Of a DNA stretch of 61,738 nt, positions 36,168 to 54,064 are shown in pieces (the first letter of the stretch is position 1; each line of letters starts with the position of its first letter). This DNA comes from Nitrospiraceae bacterium (GTDB lineage: Bacteria > Nitrospirota > Thermodesulfovibrionia > Thermodesulfovibrionales > Dissulfurispiraceae): assembly GCA_021371915.1 (NCBI GenBank), contig JAJFVG010000061.1:1-61738 (forward strand). Direction: 5' to 3'. The notes under the pieces are model-generated. The model had not been told where the DNA came from. It ran no database searches and was given only the letters and a program-made list of their open reading frames with translations. A program made the translations under genes and the position numbers.

Positions 36168-36207
36168 GTTCAAACAGGGCAGGCAGGGCAGGTTGCGGAG
36201 GTTGTCT

Positions 36208-38913
36208 TTGAGAGTTAGGGTTACTATAAATGGCGAACCCATGACAGTGGAGCCTGGCAGAACTATACTTGAGGTCTGCCGGACAGCAGGCATTCGCATA
36301 CCAACTCTTTGCCATGATGAACGGCTCGAACCATATGGCGGATGCAGGCTCTGCCTTGTGGAGATCAAGGGCATGGCGAGGCCGCTTGCATCATGCACCA
36401 CTCCTGTGCAGGAAGGCATGGAGATAACCACAGAGAGTCCGGCGCTGAGGCAGCTGCGCAGAACAACCCTTTCGCTCATACTTTCAAACCATCCCAATGA
36501 CTGCATGAAGTGCGAGCAGACCGGCAGCTGCACCCTTCAAGACCTCGCATATGAATATGATGCGGACGGTGATCTGTACAAAGGCGAAAAGTGGGATCTG
36601 CCAAAGAGAGAGGACAATCCATTCATCACCTATGAGCCCAACAAATGCATACTCTGCGGCAGATGCACAAGGATATGCAATGAGGTGGTGATGGCAGGCA
36701 CAATAGACATTACTGGCAGGGGATTCAGGGCAATGCCTGACACTGCCTTCAGCAAACCGCGCACGCTCGATAACTGTGAGTTCTGCGGCCAGTGCGTATC
36801 CACATGTCCGACAGGGGCGCTCACTGACAAAAGGGGCAGGGGACTCGGCCGCGACCATGAAATGAAAAAGGTCAAGACCACATGCTCATACTGCGGCACA
36901 GGCTGCAATTTTTATCTGAATGTAAAAGACAACAAAGTGGTTAAGGTGACATCAGCACTTGATGCGCCTGTAAACAGGGGCAACCTCTGCATAAAGGGCA
37001 GGTACGGATATGAGTTCATACACAGCCCTGACCGCATAAAGACTCCTCTCATAAAAAAGAATGGTGTGTTTCACGAGGCATCATGGGATGAGGCTCTCGA
37101 TCTTGTCTCAACAAGATTCAAAAGTCTTATCGAAAAATACGGGCCTGAAAAGGTGGGCGCGTTTTCATCAGCCCGCTGCACTAATGAAGAGAATTATCTG
37201 CTGGCCAAGTGGGTGAGATGCGCGGTTGGGTCCAATAATGTGGACAACTGCGCGCGGGTCTGACACGCTCCAACTGTGGCCGGTCTGGCCACCAGCCTCG
37301 GTGCAGGAGCAGCAACCAATTCTCTCGATCAGATGCCTGATATCGACACACTGTTCCTGTTTGGCTCAAATCCTACTGAAGGACATCCGATTGTTTCTCT
37401 CTGGCTCAAAAAGGCACTCAGAAACGGCGCAAAGCTTATAGTGGGCGATCCTAGAAAGACATGGATGGCAAAACGCGCTGACGTATGGCTTAATCTCAAA
37501 CCCGGCAGCAACATTGCGCTTTTAAACGGTATGCTCAATGCGATATTCCAGAATGGATGGGAAGATAAATCATTCATCACAAAAAGAACAGAAGGCATTG
37601 AAGAACTCAAGAAAAAAGTTGCTGAGTACGGGCCTGATGTGGTCGAAAAGATCACAGGCGTGTCGTGGGACAGTGTTGTTGAGGCAGCAAGGCTCTATTC
37701 CCATGCTGACAAGGCGATGATAGTCTACGGCCTCGGCGTGACTGAACATAAAACAGGCACTGAAAACGCAATAGCAATAGCAAATCTTGCGCTCGCTTGC
37801 GGACAGATAGGCAGGCCCTCAACAGGCATAATGGCACTGAGGGGGCAGAACAATGTGCAGGGCGCGTCAGATCTTGGGCCGTATCCTTCATCACTGCCTG
37901 GTTATCAGTCAGTGATGGATGCAAAGGCCAGGGAAAAATTCGAGAAGGCATGGGGCGTGCAAATAAAAGACAAGCCCGGCCTTAAATCCGTCGAGATGCT
38001 GGATGAATGCACAAAGGGAAACTTCAAGGGCCTCTATGTGCTCGGCTATGACATAGCGCAGACAGACCCGAACCTCAATCATGTATGGAAGGCTCTTGAG
38101 TCTGTAGAGTTTCTTGTTGTGCAGGATATATTCCATACAGAGACGACCAGGTTTGCTGATGTTGTGCTTCCGGGCGCGAGCTTTGCGGAAAAGGACGGCA
38201 CTTTTACAAACGGGGAGCGCAGGGTGCAGCGTGTGCGCAAGGCTATAGAGCCTCTATGCGGTATGGCAGACTGACAGGTTATATGCGAACTCTCATCCAG
38301 GATGGGCTATGAAATGAGCTACAGCCATCCGTCAGAGATAATGGATGAGATAGCTTCCCTTGTGCCTAATTACGGCGGCATCGATTATAAAAGAATTGAT
38401 GAGATGGGGCTTCAGTGGCCGTGTCCAACAAAAGATCATCCAGGCACATCCACTCTATACACTGACATATTCTCAAGGCCTGGCGGCCTGGCCCAGTTTA
38501 TGCCGCTTGACCATTCAGGCTCCGGAGAGAATCCGGATAATGAGTATCCGTTTGTGCTCGTAACGGGCAGAGTAAGGGAGCACTACAACAACGGTTCGAT
38601 GACAAGAAGATGCAGAGGCATTTTAGAGCTTGTGCCTGAAGAGCTGCTGGAGATAAGCCATGAGGATGCAGCAGAACTTGGAGTGCTTAACGGCGACTGG
38701 GTGAATGTTGCATCACGCAGGGGACAGATAAAGGTAAAGGCAAAGGTTACCAGCCGTTCTCAGGCAGGCAATGTGTTTCTTACATTCCATCATCCTGAAG
38801 CACTCACCAATATGCTCACATCAGGCTTTAGAGACCCGGTAACAGGCACTCCTGAATACAAGGTCTGCGCAGTCAAGATCGAAAAGACATACATTGAAGG
38901 CGACTGGTCATAG
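36208..38913 (+). CDS. fdhA: Selenocysteine-containing formate dehydrogenase, alpha subunit, with a second in-frame UGA
   Basis: One frame of 902 codons with internal TGA at 37261 (residue 352) and 38272 (residue 689). Domains in order: N-terminal [2Fe-2S] (CHDERLEPYGGCRLC), NuoG-like His/Cys site (NHPNDCMKCEQTGSC), two 4Fe-4S clusters (CILCGRCTRIC; CEFCGQCVSTC), the MopB Fe-S site (CSYCGTGC), the bis-MGD catalytic domain, and the C-terminal molydopterin-binding domain. UGA 352 sits in CARV-U-HAPTVAG, the catalytic selenocysteine site. UGA 689 (GMAD-*-QVICEL) falls where relatives usually have Trp. Termination there would remove 212 residues. Start TTG 36208 follows GGAGG by six bases. No fdhB-type partner is adjacent. 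Confidence 0.88.
37261..37295 (+). promoter_or_regulatory. Selenocysteine UGA and bacterial SECIS hairpin in fdhA
   Basis: TGA at 37261-37263 is followed by a stem GTGGCC (37276-37281) / GGCCAC (37287-37292) closing the loop GGTCT (37282-37286). The lower stem extends through a bulged C. The GGUCU loop starts 18 bases after the UGA, as in E. coli fdhF, where SelB binds it. Confidence 0.93.
38272..38274 (+). other. Second in-frame UGA in fdhA, at a normally Trp codon
   Basis: TGA in the same frame as both flanking parts of fdhA. The downstream 45 bases have no GGTCT-type loop, only a weak CATC/GATG pairing. One base (TGG to TGA) would explain it. Confidence 0.85.
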
Positions 38914-38964: not shown

Positions 38965-39041
38965 TGGCGGGGCGGACGGGGCTCGAACCCGCGACCTCCG
39001 GCGTGACAGGCCGGCGTTCTAACCAGCTGAACTACCGCCCC
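38965..39041 (-). tRNA. tRNA-Asp (anticodon GTC)
   Basis: Minus-strand cloverleaf: acceptor GGGGCGG/CCGCCCC, anticodon loop CTGTCAC with GTC, T loop TTCGAGC, discriminator G, and an encoded CCA (38965-38967). Confidence 0.97.
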
Positions 39042-39059: not shown

Positions 39060-39135
39060 TGGTAGGCGGAACAGGGATCGAACCTGTGACATCAGCCTTG
39101 TAAGGGCTGCGCTCTCCCAGCTGAGCTATCCGCCC
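39060..39135 (-). tRNA. tRNA-Val (anticodon TAC)
   Basis: Minus-strand cloverleaf: acceptor GGGCGGA/TCCGCCT, D arm GCTC...GAGC, anticodon loop CTTACAA with TAC, T loop TTCGATC, discriminator A and encoded CCA (39060-39062). It lies 18 bases upstream of tRNA-Asp, probably one transcript. Confidence 0.97.
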
Positions 39136-39219: not shown

Positions 39220-40119
39220 ATGACAAAACTTTTATTCAAATACGCAGCGGTTTTTTTTACGGTTTTTATCACATTTTTACTCTTGTGCAGCCCTTTGTTT
39301 GCGCAAACATACGCGTTCAGCAGCGAGGAATCAGTTGTTGGAATGGACCAGAACCATGTTGTGGCGGACAGGGAGTCTCTTATAGAGATAGCCAGAAAGT
39401 ACGGCATAGGATTTAATGCCATACACGCTGCCAATCCATCTCTGGATGAGTTTCTGCCCGGCAGCGGGGCAGAGGTTTTTATACCAACATCATTCATACT
39501 GCCTGATGAGAAGAAGAATTCGATAGTTATAAACCTTTCTGAAATGCGGCTCTACTATTTTTTCAGCAAAGGCAAATCCAGATATGTGAGCACGTTTCCG
39601 ATAGGTATAGGCACAGAGCTTGCCAATACTCCTGTCGGCGTTTTCAAGGTTACTCACAAAACCGTCAACCCCAGCTGGTATGTGCCGCCTTCCGTTCAGA
39701 AGGAGAGACCTGAACTGCCGAAGGTGGTGCCCCCAGGTCCTGAGAATCCTCTGGGCACTCATGCGATGAGGCTTTCTTCATCAACAGTGCTTGTTCATGG
39801 CACTCACAGGCCGTATGGTGTGGGCAGGCGGGTTAGCCACGGATGTATAAGGCTCTATCCGGAACATATTCCCCAGTTGTTCAGAATTGTGCCGATAGGC
39901 ACTCAGGTTTTTATCATCCAGCAGCCTGTAAAGGTTGGACAGCGTTTTGGTCGCGTATATGTTTCAGTTCATGATGATGACCATCTTCAGGGCTTCAATT
40001 ATTTGAGCGCTGCCATCGGGCAGCTCAAGCAGAAGAATCTGCTCGACAGAATAAGCACTGACAAGCTTTATGATGCGGTTGAGCATAAAAGCGGATATCC
40101 GGTAGATATAACAGAGTAA
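39220..40119 (+). CDS. L,D-transpeptidase with LysM-like domain (ErfK/YbiS/YcfS type)
   Basis: A 299-residue exported YkuD-domain enzyme. Signal peptide at residues ~8-29 (ending LFAQ), a LysM-like segment (DRESLIEIARKYGIGFNAIHAANPSL, ~50-92), and the YkuD domain ~100-220. The active site is SHGCIRLYP with Cys209, His207 and upstream LVHGTH (His193). The family makes 3-3 crosslinks or links lipoprotein Lys to meso-DAP. It converges on a lipoprotein that ends in Lys-Lys, which favours a Braun-lipoprotein-attaching role by inference. Confidence 0.92.
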   Translation: MTKLLFKYAAVFFTVFITFLLLCSPLFAQTYAFSSEESVVGMDQNHVVADRESLIEIARKYGIGFNAIHAANPSLDEFLPGSGAEVFIPTSFILPDEKKNSIVINLSEMRLYYFFSKGKSRYVSTFPIGIGTELANTPVGVFKVTHKTVNPSWYVPPSVQKERPELPKVVPPGPENPLGTHAMRLSSSTVLVHGTHRPYGVGRRVSHGCIRLYPEHIPQLFRIVPIGTQVFIIQQPVKVGQRFGRVYVSVHDDDHLQGFNYLSAAIGQLKQKNLLDRISTDKLYDAVEHKSGYPVDITE

Positions 40120-40138
40120 GGAATAAAGAGATGAAAAT

Positions 40139-40176
40139 AAAGAGAGGGCGTTCGCTACAGCGAACGCCCTCTCTTT
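40139..40176. terminator. Bidirectional terminator
   Basis: A perfect 18-bp inverted repeat (AAAGAGAGGGCGTTCGCT and its complement, 40139-40156 / 40159-40176) separates the convergent L,D-transpeptidase and lipoprotein genes. The ends are A-rich on the left and T-rich on the right, serving both strands. Confidence 0.9.
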
Positions 40177-40195
40177 ATTTTAAGTTGTTCAGTAA

Positions 40196-40588
40196 TTATT
40201 TCTTCTGGTGTAATTCAAATGCTTTTTTGGCTTTGTCTGAAGCGGACTCAGCCTTGCCAAGTGCAGCTTCAGCCCTTGCAGCAGCAGCTTCAGCGCGTTT
40301 TACAGCGTCATTAAGAGCAGCATCATTAGCACTGCAGCACTTCTTTGCATCAAGTGCAGCAGCCTTTGCGTCAGCAGCGTCTTTCTTAGCGGCATTAAGA
40401 TCAGCAGCTGATACAGAACCCTTGCTCTCAAGTGCAGCAACCCTTGCCTCCAGGGCAGAGTTCTTTGCCTCGAGCTTGCTTATTCTGTCTACGAGGGGAG
40501 TAATCTCCTGTTTTACATAGTCCTTTGTTGCGCAGCCGAATGCGAACATCAGTACAACCGCGAGAACGAGCAACATCAGTTTCTTCAT
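40196..40588 (-). CDS. Ala-rich coiled-coil outer-membrane lipoprotein (Lpp/OprI-like)
   Basis: A 130-residue lipoprotein with signal peptide and lipobox MFAFGC (Cys19), then a continuous heptad coiled coil. The first part is mixed (LVDRISKLEAKNSALEARVAALES) and the second an alanine zipper (AEAAAARAEAALGKAE). It ends HQKK. A terminal Lys is the residue by which Braun lipoprotein is bound to peptidoglycan. AGGAGGTG precedes ATG 40588. It is twice the length of E. coli Lpp and has an unusual CC pair in the middle (KKCCSAND). Other alanine-zipper lipoproteins are the alternative. Confidence 0.82.
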   Translation of the reverse strand: MKKLMLLVLAVVLMFAFGCATKDYVKQEITPLVDRISKLEAKNSALEARVAALESKGSVSAADLNAAKKDAADAKAAALDAKKCCSANDAALNDAVKRAEAAAARAEAALGKAESASDKAKKAFELHQKK

Positions 40589-50732: not shown

Positions 50733-52436
50733 ATGAAAAAAAGGGCTGTGATACTCAGTACTGCTGTCATATTCGGGTTTGTCATAGTTCTGCTGCGCAT
50801 GGTTGACATAATGCTTGTGAACCATGACAGGTTTCTCGCAAAGGCCCAGTATCAGCAGGTCCGCAAAAAGGCTGTTCCTGTCAAGCGCGGCGTCATATAT
50901 GACAGAAGAGGCAGGGAGCTTGCCATCAATCTCGATACAGAATCGATCTTCTGCGATCCTTCAGAAATATCAGCTCCGGAAAAAGCCGCATCAGCGCTCT
51001 CTGCTGCACTCAATACCGCACCGAATGTGATACTCACAAAACTGTCAGGCGAGGGCAGATTCAACTGGATAGAGAGAAAACAGCATCCTGATCTCGGCAG
51101 CAGGATCAACAAGCTCAAGATAAGGGGCATAGGCACAATATCCGAGCCGATGAGATCTTATCCAAAAGGCAGACTCGCATCGCAGATACTCGGATTTGTT
51201 GACATAGACAACAACGGCATTGAAGGCATAGAGAGACAGTACGAAAAATTTCTTGCTGCCAGGCCTGAACACGTAAAAGTGCACAGAGATGCCAGAGGCA
51301 ATATGCTTTCTGACGGCATGATGAAGGAGCTGAAGGGCAATAACATAGTTCTCACCATAGATGAAGGGCTCCAGTACATACTCGAGAAAAATCTCAACGA
51401 AGCGGTTGTGCACTGGAAGGCCGCAGGAGCAACAGCGATAATAATGTCTCCTGCAACAGGCGAGATACTTGCAATGACAAGCCTGCCTGATTATGACCCC
51501 AATGATGCCTCCGGATCAAAACCAGAACAGAGAAGAAACAGGGCGCTTACGGACATTTACGAGCCAGGCTCTACATTTAAAATAATAGCTGGCGCAGCAG
51601 CGCTCGAAGAAAATATCGTAACACCTTCAACAAAGTTCGACTGCAGCGCAGGAAATATCGAAGTCGGCGGAAAAAAGATAAAGGACGCGCACAGGCATGG
51701 AGTGTTGAGTTTTGCAGAGGTTATCCAAAAATCCTCGAATGTCGGAACCATAAAGATCGCACAGAGACTCGGCAAGGACAAGGTATATGAATACATCAAA
51801 AAATTCGGGTTCGGAGAAAAGACAGGCATCGATATAGCCGGAGAGATATCCGGACTTGTGAGGCCTCCGCACAGATGGTCCGGCATGTCCATAGGAGCCA
51901 TTGCGATCGGCCAGGAGGTTGGGGTAACACCGCTTCAGGTGCTCAGGGCCTATGCTGCCATAGCAAACGGCGGGTATCTGGTTACACCGCATGTTGTCTC
52001 AGAGATCCGCACGCCTGAGGGCGGGCTTGTGCACAAGACAACCCCGAATGCCAAAAAAATAATATCCGACAGCACGGTCGAGACATTCAGAGAGATACTC
52101 AAAACAGTCACCCAGGAAGGCGGCACCGCGCTTGAAGCAGCGATTGACGGCAACAGCGTTGCAGGCAAGACAGGCACAGCGCAGATTATTGATCCGCGCA
52201 CAAAGAGATATTCAAAAGACAGATACATAGGCTCGTTTGTCGGGTTTGTTCCTGCTGACAAGCCGAGGCTAGCGATGATAGTTGTGATAAATGAGCCTAA
52301 AGGAAAGATATACGGCGGCACGGTTGCAGGCCCTGTATTCAGAAAAACAGCCAATGAGGCGCTCTCGTACCTGAGCGTGCCGCGGGATGATTCAAGGGAA
52401 AAAGGCCTGCTGCTCATCTCGACAACAGGAAGATAA
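50733..52436 (+). CDS. ftsI: Septal peptidoglycan transpeptidase FtsI (PBP3)
   Basis: Class B penicillin-binding protein of the divisome, 567 residues. One membrane anchor (~residues 5-25), PVKRGVIYDRRGRELA dimerisation motif, and a transpeptidase domain with the nucleophile in YEPGSTFK (SxxK), SSN in IQKSSNVGTIKIA and KTG in VAGKTGTAQI. The sequence ends shortly after the transpeptidase domain with no PASTA repeats. ATG 50733 preferred over adjacent TTG 50730; no strong ribosome site is seen. Confidence 0.94.
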   Translation: MKKRAVILSTAVIFGFVIVLLRMVDIMLVNHDRFLAKAQYQQVRKKAVPVKRGVIYDRRGRELAINLDTESIFCDPSEISAPEKAASALSAALNTAPNVILTKLSGEGRFNWIERKQHPDLGSRINKLKIRGIGTISEPMRSYPKGRLASQILGFVDIDNNGIEGIERQYEKFLAARPEHVKVHRDARGNMLSDGMMKELKGNNIVLTIDEGLQYILEKNLNEAVVHWKAAGATAIIMSPATGEILAMTSLPDYDPNDASGSKPEQRRNRALTDIYEPGSTFKIIAGAAALEENIVTPSTKFDCSAGNIEVGGKKIKDAHRHGVLSFAEVIQKSSNVGTIKIAQRLGKDKVYEYIKKFGFGEKTGIDIAGEISGLVRPPHRWSGMSIGAIAIGQEVGVTPLQVLRAYAAIANGGYLVTPHVVSEIRTPEGGLVHKTTPNAKKIISDSTVETFREILKTVTQEGGTALEAAIDGNSVAGKTGTAQIIDPRTKRYSKDRYIGSFVGFVPADKPRLAMIVVINEPKGKIYGGTVAGPVFRKTANEALSYLSVPRDDSREKGLLLISTTGR

Positions 52437-54064
52437 TGAAACTGCAACAGCTTGTAAAAAATGAATGGAAAGTGCGCGGCAGCCTCTCAACAGAGGTGGC
52501 GGGCCTGTCATATGATTCAAGGACAGTCAGGATGGGCGATATCTTTGCCGCTCTCAAAGGCGTTGCAGCAGACAGCCACGAGTATGTTGAAGATGCTATT
52601 AAAAGAGGCGCTTCAGCAGTGATAGTTGAGTCAGGAAGGATCAATACGGACTACTACACTGACAAGTATCCGCAGACCGCAATTGTGGAGACTGACGATA
52701 CGCGCTCAGCGCTGGCTTACGTGTCTGATGCTTTTTACGGACATCCGTCAAATGAGATGGATGTGGTAGGCATAACAGGCACAAACGGCAAGACAACAAC
52801 CTCATACATAACAAGGTCGATCCTGATGAAGGCAGGTTACAAGGCAGGACTGATCGGCACCATCAGCTATATTGTCGGCAGCGAGCAGTTCAACGCGCCG
52901 CACACCACTCCGGAGGCGCCGGATTTTCAGTCGCTTTTAAGAAGGATGAAGGACGACGGATGCAGCGCTGTTGTATCTGAAGTGTCTTCGCATGCCCTTG
53001 CACAGAAGAGGGCGGATTTCACCAGGTTCAGGACAGCTGCCTTCACAAATCTCACAAGAGACCACCTCGACTATCACAAGGACATGGATGATTATTATTC
53101 AGCAAAAAAAAGACTCTTCGCTGACCTGCTTGTTGATGGCGGCTGCGCTGTTATAAACATTGACGATGAATACGGCAAAAGACTCGCAAAAGAGCTCAAG
53201 GCAGAGAGGGGCGGTTCGGTAAAGATACTCACCTATTCACTCAAAGACAGCAGCGCTGACCTGTTTGCTGATGATGTGAGGCTTTCATATAGCGGCACAA
53301 AGTTCAGGCTAAAGACAGCGGATGCGGAGACAGAGATAACAATCGGCCTTGTCGGTTATGTGAACGTTTACAACGCCCTATGCGCAGCAGGGATAGGGCT
53401 GTCAATCAATATATCAATCGAAGATGTCAAGGAGGGTATTGTTATGACCGAAATGGTTAAAGGAAGATTCGAGTGTGTTGATCTCGGCCAGGATTTTCTG
53501 GCTGTTGTCGACTATGCTCACACTGAGGACGCGCTTGAAGGACTGCTCAAAACAGCACATCAGCTTCTTGATGCGTACCACTATGCCGGAAAGGTGGGCA
53601 GGCTCGCAAAGATGCGCAAGGATCGTTTCTCCTTGCCGACTGTGAAGGGCCACGGAAAGATTATCACTGTCTTTGGCTGCGGAGGAAACAGGGACAAGGG
53701 CAAGAGGCCTAAGATGGGCGAGCTGGCTGCAAAGCTGAGCGATTTTGTTATCATCACTTCCGACAATCCCAGGGGCGAGGATCCAAAAAAGATACTCAAG
53801 GACATAGAGAAGGGCATCAAGGGTGACAACTACATAGTTATCCCTGACAGGGCTGTTGCAATAAGTCTTGCGGTTGAGCTGGCATCATCCGGCGACATCG
53901 TGCTTGTTGCAGGCAAGGGCCATGAGGAGTATCAGGAGATAAAAGGCACTCGCCTTAATTTCAGCGATAAAGTGACTTTGGAAACAGCTATTAAACGCAC
54001 AATCACCAGACCTGCTTTTGGCGGGGGCACAACATTCATGGGGTCGGAAGCAGCAAGGTGCTGA
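52436..54064 (+). CDS. murE: UDP-MurNAc-tripeptide synthetase MurE (meso-DAP type), with an insertion
   Basis: Adds meso-diaminopimelate to UDP-MurNAc-L-Ala-D-Glu. The 542-residue protein has the ATP loop GITGTNGKTTT (112-122), HTTPEAPD, carbamylated-Lys region YYSAKKRLF, VVDYAHTEDAL and the DAP-selecting motif DNPRGEDP (443-450). Between the AH-TEDALEGLLKTA helix and the FGCGGNRDKGKRP strand there are roughly 28 additional residues (~379-406, basic, AGKVGRLAKMRKDRFS) compared with E. coli MurE. ATG 52436 overlaps the ftsI stop; its end overlaps murF by seven bases. Confidence 0.95.
   Translation: MKLQQLVKNEWKVRGSLSTEVAGLSYDSRTVRMGDIFAALKGVAADSHEYVEDAIKRGASAVIVESGRINTDYYTDKYPQTAIVETDDTRSALAYVSDAFYGHPSNEMDVVGITGTNGKTTTSYITRSILMKAGYKAGLIGTISYIVGSEQFNAPHTTPEAPDFQSLLRRMKDDGCSAVVSEVSSHALAQKRADFTRFRTAAFTNLTRDHLDYHKDMDDYYSAKKRLFADLLVDGGCAVINIDDEYGKRLAKELKAERGGSVKILTYSLKDSSADLFADDVRLSYSGTKFRLKTADAETEITIGLVGYVNVYNALCAAGIGLSINISIEDVKEGIVMTEMVKGRFECVDLGQDFLAVVDYAHTEDALEGLLKTAHQLLDAYHYAGKVGRLAKMRKDRFSLPTVKGHGKIITVFGCGGNRDKGKRPKMGELAAKLSDFVIITSDNPRGEDPKKILKDIEKGIKGDNYIVIPDRAVAISLAVELASSGDIVLVAGKGHEEYQEIKGTRLNFSDKVTLETAIKRTITRPAFGGGTTFMGSEAARC

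Follow-up and report, generated by a model that had tools for sequence, protein, structure and literature searches.

A Convergent L,D-Transpeptidase and Coiled-Coil Lipoprotein Pair as a Probable Braun-Type Tether of Double Length in Nitrospirota

The stretch of DNA analyzed here (the window, 61,738 nucleotides, contig JAJFVG010000061.1 of the Nitrospiraceae assembly GCA_021371915.1) is one contig of a 1.8-Mb draft genome, labeled G000. It carries two convergent genes spaced 76 bp apart: on the plus strand (39220 to 40119) a YkuD L,D-transpeptidase (LDT) of the LdtA/B/C/E (ErfK) group, with 299 amino acids and probably exported, and on the minus strand (40196 to 40588) an Lpp/OprI-like coiled-coil lipoprotein, with a precursor of 130 amino acids and a mature form of 112. 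The original prediction had described a YkuD enzyme converging on a lipobox-bearing coiled-coil lipoprotein that ends in QKK, and both genes are present as described, the tail reading ELHQKK. Between the two stop codons lies an inverted repeat (40134 to 40181, not assigned to a strand; −37.7 kcal/mol, z −9.6), a candidate two-way terminator, flagged on the minus strand by the terminator scan and, being palindromic, able in principle to serve both genes. We consider it likely that, in Nitrospirota, the two genes form a tether of the Braun type that can be attached and released and whose natural spacer has double length. The basis of this reading is the genes themselves, their motifs and co-occurrence, family profiles, the Lys terminus, and heptad periodicity.

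The enzyme scored 92.3 bits against the YkuD profile PF03734 (cut-off, 23.4), together with a weak LysM stretch (14.9 bits, below the cut-off of 20.9); 8 of 22 orthologues matched LysM at an E value of ≤0.01. Its catalytic motif SHGCIR (39835 to 39852, plus strand) contains the nucleophile Cys209 (39844 to 39846) and Arg211, a transpeptidase-type residue; Gly208, Cys209, and Arg211 are invariant in all 22 paired enzymes, and the motif satisfies the (S/T)XGCh(R/N) pattern of the ErfK/YbiS/YcfS/YnhG L,D-transpeptidases. Similarity to E. coli LdtA, LdtB, LdtC, and LdtE spans the full length of the protein (34 to 38% identity, 302 to 315 columns), LdtC coming first (37.8% over 315 columns), followed by LdtA (36.4%), LdtB (34.7%), and LdtE (34.0%). 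The best NCBIfam score was that of LdtE (168.8 bits, then 159.6 and 153.5), under the NCBIfam equivalog cut-offs (168.8 versus 480 bits). An AlphaFold2 (AF2) model with a predicted local distance difference test score (pLDDT) of 90.4 had as its top PDB match 4lzh, a Klebsiella L,D-transpeptidase, with a template modeling (TM) score of 0.79. The enzyme is thus of the ErfK/YbiS/YcfS type that had been proposed, resembling E. coli LdtA/B/C/E and not DpaA.

The genome encodes two YkuD proteins, and the second (G000:C47, 8988 to 9392, plus strand) carries a TDGCIA motif, is 37% identical to E. coli DpaA over 121 amino acids, and has LdtF_DpaA_YafK as its only NCBIfam match (55.5 bits; cut-off, 365). 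Among the 40 genomes searched, our own included, a DpaA-like protein was found in 25, namely in 18 of 22 genomes that carry the gene pair (weakly in G039) and in 7 of the 18 others; in 23 such matches examined, the motif was GC-hydrophobic-Ala in 21 and GCIG in 1, and 1 gave none. The genome may therefore hold an attaching and a releasing YkuD enzyme, as far as the sequences can tell. That the paired enzyme is itself a DpaA-like releasing amidase, and not an attaching one, is scarcely credible: DpaA is likewise a YkuD protein, but the motif here is GCIR and not GCxA, Arg211 is invariant in 22 of 22 enzymes, BLASTP of the enzyme against E. coli DpaA gave no match, and a separate DpaA-like gene is present at G000:C47. 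The motif distinction follows passages of PMC10434034, which oppose SXGChR in transpeptidases to SXGChA, proposed for amidases of the DpaA type. The motif and the BLASTP result led us to discard release of the DpaA type as a role for the paired enzyme. As a separate observation, the sole YkuD protein found in G009 (locus L085) reads TAGCVR and its partner ends in LMLIK, unlike near relatives, possibly a decaying pair.

The lipoprotein has a signal peptide, an FGC lipobox with Ala at position +2, a first half with the character of a Leu zipper, and an Ala-rich second half. Lipobox Cys19 (40532 to 40534, minus strand) is the predicted acylated N terminus of the mature protein, and Gly18-Cys19 is invariant in all 21 aligned sequences (the paired ones apart from G011, omitted for a run of N). 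The C-terminal Lys-Lys (40199 to 40204, minus strand) is predicted to attach to meso-diaminopimelic acid (meso-DAP) via its last Lys. At an E value of ≤0.01, the Lpp/OprI model NF040598 matched 21 of the 21 orthologues and the Alanine_zipper profile PF11839 matched 20; the E. coli Lpp models fit only some of them, 6/21 for NF011925 (major outer membrane lipoprotein) and 4/21 for PF04728. The best orthologue E values were 3.5e-12 (NF040598), 8.2e-16 (PF11839), and 4.8e-9 (PF04728).

Among the same 40 genomes, the lipoprotein was found in 24 and an enzyme match in 32, and the two genes formed a convergent adjacent pair in 22 of the 24 lipoprotein-bearing genomes, the exceptions being G023 (contig end) and G029 (different contigs). 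In a larger sample of 395 genomes of the phylum, 102 had a lipoprotein match and 134 an enzyme match at 1e-40, the former a slight overcount that includes G302 and G060. These two genomes encode longer proteins (L263 and L264) with the same membrane-proximal start (GCATKSYVEEKIAPMNTRV, GCATNDFVKQEI) and, by eye, an OmpA-like end; they were rejected as members of the lipoprotein family for their length and that end, and from their sequences a non-covalent version of the tether is possible. Our own genome has one good match to the OmpA domain, a possible second, non-covalent tether.

We then sorted the phylum matches by enzyme score, leaving out the weakest lipoprotein matches (mostly E > ~1e-4) and enzymes below ~185 bits; the counts hold among the matches listed. 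At 410 bits or more, the lipoprotein was convergent with the enzyme in 51 of 56 cases and elsewhere in the genome in the other 5, so that co-occurrence across relatives, which had been proposed as a check, is borne out in 56 of 56 such genomes. Between 340 and 410 bits, 20 of 30 enzymes had a convergent lipoprotein, 7 had one elsewhere or farther off, and 3 were without a match; between 300 and 340 bits, 1 of 5 was convergent and 4 were without a match. The seven enzymes of 300 to 410 bits without a match do face a convergent lipobox open reading frame (ORF) when the DNA is read, which the profile missed. From 250 to 300 bits, 2 of 16 were convergent, 5 had the lipoprotein elsewhere, and 9 lacked a match, and none of the 15 paralogues of 180 to 250 bits had an adjacent lipoprotein. 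Some unlinked cases are at the end of a contig.

The pair recurs beyond these genomes. The 80 best named enzyme loci represent Nitrospirota, Thermodesulfobacteriota, Pseudomonadota, and a few further lineages, mostly under Nitrospirae or Thermodesulfovibrionales labels. Fifty-nine of them have, no more than 1 kb from the enzyme, a lipobox ORF that is rich in Ala and has Lys or Arg as its last residue. The partner ORFs are downstream and convergent (54 ending in Lys, 1 in Arg), upstream on the same strand (5), or downstream on the same strand (1); two of these counts share L105, which has three. The layout is not convergent in 6 of the 59 loci, and on this ground the link between enzyme and lipoprotein survives rearrangement. 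Counting ORFs with any ending, the filter retained 67 within 151,866 bp close to the enzyme versus 1, not ending in Lys, in 266,575 bp far from it; the composition thresholds were set after a first pass and applied unchanged to the far control, and the filter misses at least one ORF ending in Lys (L142). No mature protein could be assigned for L203 (cut at a contig end) or L216 (lipobox unrecognizable), and both ORFs end in Lys. In L105 (Nitrospirae RBG_13_39_12), three successive Lpp-like lipoprotein ORFs lie downstream of the enzyme with mature lengths of 108, 35, and 61 residues, the two short ones ending in QQQK and QQEK, a small tandem family.

Other neighbors are less stable: at 21 other loci, some of them on short contigs and with the neighbors named by reading their sequences, we found ZnuABC-like genes in 9 to 11, a major facilitator superfamily (MFS)-like gene in 11, and an FdhA-like gene in 1. 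Could the two genes have stayed together merely through conservation of the region? The zinc ABC-like and MFS-like genes are also kept in about half of the loci, in line with such passive synteny, but the pair persists despite differing neighbors and recurs across several phyla, six named loci retain an adjacent partner in a different orientation, and genomes in which the genes are unlinked keep both (5 of 5 at 410 bits or more among the matches listed, some at contig ends). We regard this explanation as very improbable and, on the named-locus, score-tier, and neighbor counts, rejected it as the whole explanation.

The tails were compared in 99 lipoproteins. Ninety-four of these comprise the 22 paired ones, G025 and G037, and 70 more (53 adjacent, 15 non-adjacent, and 2 second copies); the remaining five are adjacent to the enzyme and were missed by the profile (G256, ending in Lys; G129 and G332, in His; G155 and G169, in Glu). 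The last residue is Lys in 91, His in 4 (G025, G037, G129, and G332), Glu in 3 (G155, G169, and G386), and Arg in 1 (G365, not adjacent), and among the 94, the tail is KK in 60 and RK in 21. Among 426 other ORFs called greedily around the pairs, a terminal Lys is found in only 52 and a KK or RK tail in 9, which, together with the conservation of the pair, places it beyond chance. The protein varies in length and sequence in its middle part but retains its tail, and common descent explains part of this conservation. Family f3 accounts for every His and Glu tail, through its genera g17 and g37; in two further f3 genera (G172 and G189) the tails end in Lys. Orthologue tails had been expected to end in Lys or Arg, and this stands for 91 Lys tails and 1 Arg tail and fails in g17 and g37, for which the plain Braun mechanism, which uses a terminal Lys, cannot hold unmodified, though Lys residues occur next to the end. 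By their sequences, the His and Glu tails are candidates for a changed or lost attachment signal, and these additional non-Lys tails slightly reduce our confidence in the tether. At the f3 loci L236, L239, L240, L241, L242, L101, and L102, a Lys-rich lipoprotein adjoins the enzyme, with the tails KKH, KKAE, and KAQE. We also considered that a changed His of the catalytic motif might track the changed tails (G025 and G037 read SSGC) and dropped the idea, as E. coli LdtC and LdtE also read SSGC.

In a quick tree of 109 enzymes, a sample picked by similarity, a largely Nitrospirota/Thermodesulfobacteriota side is separated from a Pseudomonadota side, pairs occur on both, and the four E. coli enzymes group in a single clade (Shimodaira-Hasegawa-like approximate likelihood ratio test [SH-aLRT] support, 99). 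Given the weak support for the deepest split (77) and the similarity-based sampling, these sequences only suggest a shared origin of the lipoprotein/enzyme pair.

The mechanism that we propose is as follows. The lipoprotein would be exported, lipidated at Cys19, and delivered by the Lol pathway (a LolA match is present in the genome) to the outer membrane, where it would form a parallel coiled coil with the Leu/Val/Ile zipper in the half next to the membrane and the Ala zipper in the half facing the wall. In the periplasm, the YkuD enzyme would cut the meso-DAP3–D-Ala4 bond of a stem peptide, giving an acyl-enzyme on Cys209, and would hand the tripeptide from Cys209 to the amine on the side chain of Lys130, the last residue; the DpaA-like YkuD protein (G000:C47) would cleave the bond again. 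The stem peptides would come from the product of a murE gene in the window (52436 to 54064, plus strand) with a DNPR motif, which we take to be that of the meso-DAP-adding MurE; the MurE of meso-DAP type that had been claimed for this genome is thus found, on that understanding of the motif. We infer lipidation, the outer-membrane location, a trimer, the covalent bond, the release reaction, and any longer distance from membrane to wall.

The idea of a Braun-lipoprotein system at this locus gains from the co-occurrence of the genes, the matches of the orthologues to the Lpp/OprI profile, and the resemblance of the enzyme to LdtA/B/C/E. Several results weigh against it. Most of the 395 phylum genomes are without either gene at the thresholds used; G023 (contig end), G219, and G314 have the lipoprotein and no enzyme among the matches listed; the partner went undetected in 21 of the 80 named loci, some at contig ends; and the pairing tests begin from profiles built on paired genes, so that they follow orthologues of the pair and not all YkuD enzymes. 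The lipoprotein of the window itself scores below the cut-offs of NF040598 (26.1 bits versus 43) and PF11839 (18.2 versus 23.1), PF04728 is not listed among its matches, and its two best Pfam matches are other coiled-coil models; its orthologues also match many unrelated coiled-coil models, as such sequences do. Non-Lys tails occur in 8 of 99 lipoproteins, 7 of them adjacent to their own enzyme and in the single family f3. The main caution concerns the enzyme: passages of PMC12729407 assign LdtE of E. coli to 3-3 cross-linking and the attachment of Lpp to LdtA/B/C, and since the lpp-adjacent LdtE cross-links, adjacency is no proof of attachment. Nor, according to passages of PMC10434034, can lineage separate anchoring from cross-linking enzymes.

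These last points lead to the most serious alternative for the pair as a whole, in which the enzyme is a 3-3 cross-linker or D-amino acid exchanger like LdtE, the lipoprotein is a free coiled coil, and their linkage comes from shared envelope regulation or ancestry. It draws on the cross-linking activity of the LdtE adjacent to lpp, on the top NCBIfam score, and on the seven adjacent f3 lipoproteins without a terminal Lys. However, the best pairwise match in E. coli is the Lpp-attaching LdtC, and the single clade of E. coli enzymes implies that the specialization of LdtE may postdate duplication in that lineage; moreover, the paired enzyme is the sole YkuD protein found in G026 (and in G009, with its odd motif), and the terminal Lys is retained in 91 of 99 lipoproteins. 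We judge this alternative rather unlikely, although it may be partly true as well, because one LDT can do both jobs.

The lipoprotein had been described as about twice the usual length of Lpp, and this holds, with 112 mature residues versus 58 in E. coli Lpp; as a full helix at 0.15 nm per residue, it would span ~17 nm versus ~9 nm. Lengths and Cys residues were counted in 88 lipoproteins, the 94 minus G011 (run of N), G357 (start misread), G386 (Glu), G365 (Arg), and G025 and G037 (His); the tail counts given above precede these drops. Mature lengths ranged from 72 to 131 residues (median, 103) and were a multiple of 7 in 59 of the 88, the next class being 7n+3 (15/88). Counted as distinct combinations of genus and length, 37 of 63 were multiples of 7 (binomial versus 1/7, p = 4e-16; the rows are not independent). 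Nine other moduli gave no comparable length peak, and 25 enzyme lengths taken modulo 7 gave none either. The class 7n+3 was the commonest in the named Pseudomonadota (19/36) and Thermodesulfobacteriota (6/12) groups. Taken together, the lipoproteins of 7n length have frequencies of Leu, Ile, Val, Met, or Phe of 0.63 and 0.73 at positions a and d in the first half and of Ala of 0.70 and 0.74 in the second half, and lengths and pattern fit a single coil gaining or losing whole heptads, as far as can be read from sequence. In G011 (L086), near-identical tandem heptads (SSLEGKV) flank the run of N, suggesting length change via heptad duplication.

A longer protein need not mean a wider periplasm. 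The tether could be real and its double length be taken up by bending, tilting, or folding back, a serious possibility that we place somewhat short of even. It agrees with an AF2 monomer of the lipoprotein of the window in which helices 3 to 55, 61 to 84, and 90 to 129 are broken at 56 to 60 and 85 to 89; with a mean pLDDT of only 64 and a predicted TM score (pTM) of 0.40, this model is unusable for shape, and by it the coil may be interrupted and perhaps no straight rod. On the other side stand the whole-heptad lengths of 59 of the 88 orthologues and the succession of Leu/Ile/Val and then Ala at a and d, as for one continuous coil in register, and also the finding, in passages of PMC5736177, that extending Lpp by 14 or 21 residues gave E. 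coli an envelope 3 or 4 nm wider.

The internal Cys-Cys of the lipoprotein (residues 84 and 85; 40334 to 40339, minus strand) is a candidate site for inter-chain disulfides. It had been called odd; it is present, but it is not peculiar to this sequence, recurring in 31 of the 88 orthologues, in 26 of which it lies 36, 43, or 50 residues from the C terminus, in steps of 7. That of the window lies at 47 from the C terminus, out of heptad phase, and in the named Pseudomonadota group, Cys-Cys occurs in 14 of 36 proteins, at 15, 19, or 20 residues from the end. We propose that a Cys-Cys in heptad phase, with one residue in the core and the other beside it, would be well placed for disulfides between chains; one match to the DsbA family is present in the genome.

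Parts and layout are already known from the Braun system; what is new here is the other phylum and the length, about double. In E. coli K-12, lpp is likewise convergent with ldtE, 63 bp apart, and the lipobox, zipper coil, C-terminal Lys, LdtA/B/C/E-group enzyme, and DpaA-like second YkuD protein are shared. The differences are the mature length (112 versus 58), the internal Cys-Cys of the Nitrospirota protein, the number of transpeptidase-type YkuD enzymes (one in the Nitrospirota genome versus five in E. coli), and the host, Nitrospirota versus Enterobacterales. In Pseudomonas aeruginosa, oprI presumably lies next to its LDT gene. Passages of PMC10434034 describe LdtPae2, of the ErfK/YbiS/YcfS/YnhG lineage, as the sole enzyme that anchors OprI, and as able to anchor E. 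coli Lpp; both systems would thus pair an Ala-zipper lipoprotein with an anchoring LDT from one lineage, in line with the Lpp/OprI and Alanine_zipper profiles that match 21 and 20 of the 21 orthologues. OprI differs in that it exceeds E. coli Lpp in length by just four residues (passages of PMC8824477), and it ends in Arg-Lys. The same passages give 78 residues as the typical length of Lpp and at least 99 in Geobacter as the upper end, with no direct measurement of the Geobacter periplasm. The Geobacter lipoproteins are thus also naturally long, and the Geobacteraceae loci L117, L123, and L126 are also paired; the Nitrospirota precursors are mostly longer, the mature part alone having 72 to 131 residues (median, 103). 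In the literature passages available, we found no attachment experiment for the long lipoproteins of Geobacter or Nitrospirota, and among the matches listed, with subscription journals largely outside coverage, no Nitrospirota Lpp/LDT pair and no disulfide-linked Lpp.

A bolder version of the tether can be put forward tentatively, and we doubt it more than we believe it: an old device common to Nitrospirota, Thermodesulfobacteriota, and Pseudomonadota, often accompanied by a DpaA-like enzyme, and not an invention of the gamma-proteobacteria (a 2025 paper, in passages of PMC12274547, places Lpp in a subclade of that group). In Nitrospirota it would act as a molecular ruler of whole heptads, often stapled by a Cys-Cys disulfide between chains, that widens the gap from outer membrane to wall, the whole-heptad forms having 11 to 18 heptads, ~11 to 19 nm as a helix, and the length changing mostly by heptads. 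Should the covalent tether of the Nitrospirota pair prove real, the Braun system would be much older and more widespread, the lpp-ldtE neighborhood of E. coli would be a relic of the ancestral pair and no coincidence, and the natural length series would make tether length against periplasm width testable between species.

Directly upstream of the enzyme gene, the window has two tRNA genes on the minus strand (38968 to 39041 and 39063 to 39135). A formate dehydrogenase alpha-like gene (36193 to 38913, plus strand) has an in-frame TGA at 37261 to 37263 that is common to the relative G001 and is a plausible selenocysteine site, the genome having a tRNA-Sec match of 71.4 bits. A second in-frame TGA of this gene (38272 to 38274) corresponds to Trp in G001 and would be a mutation or an assembly error.

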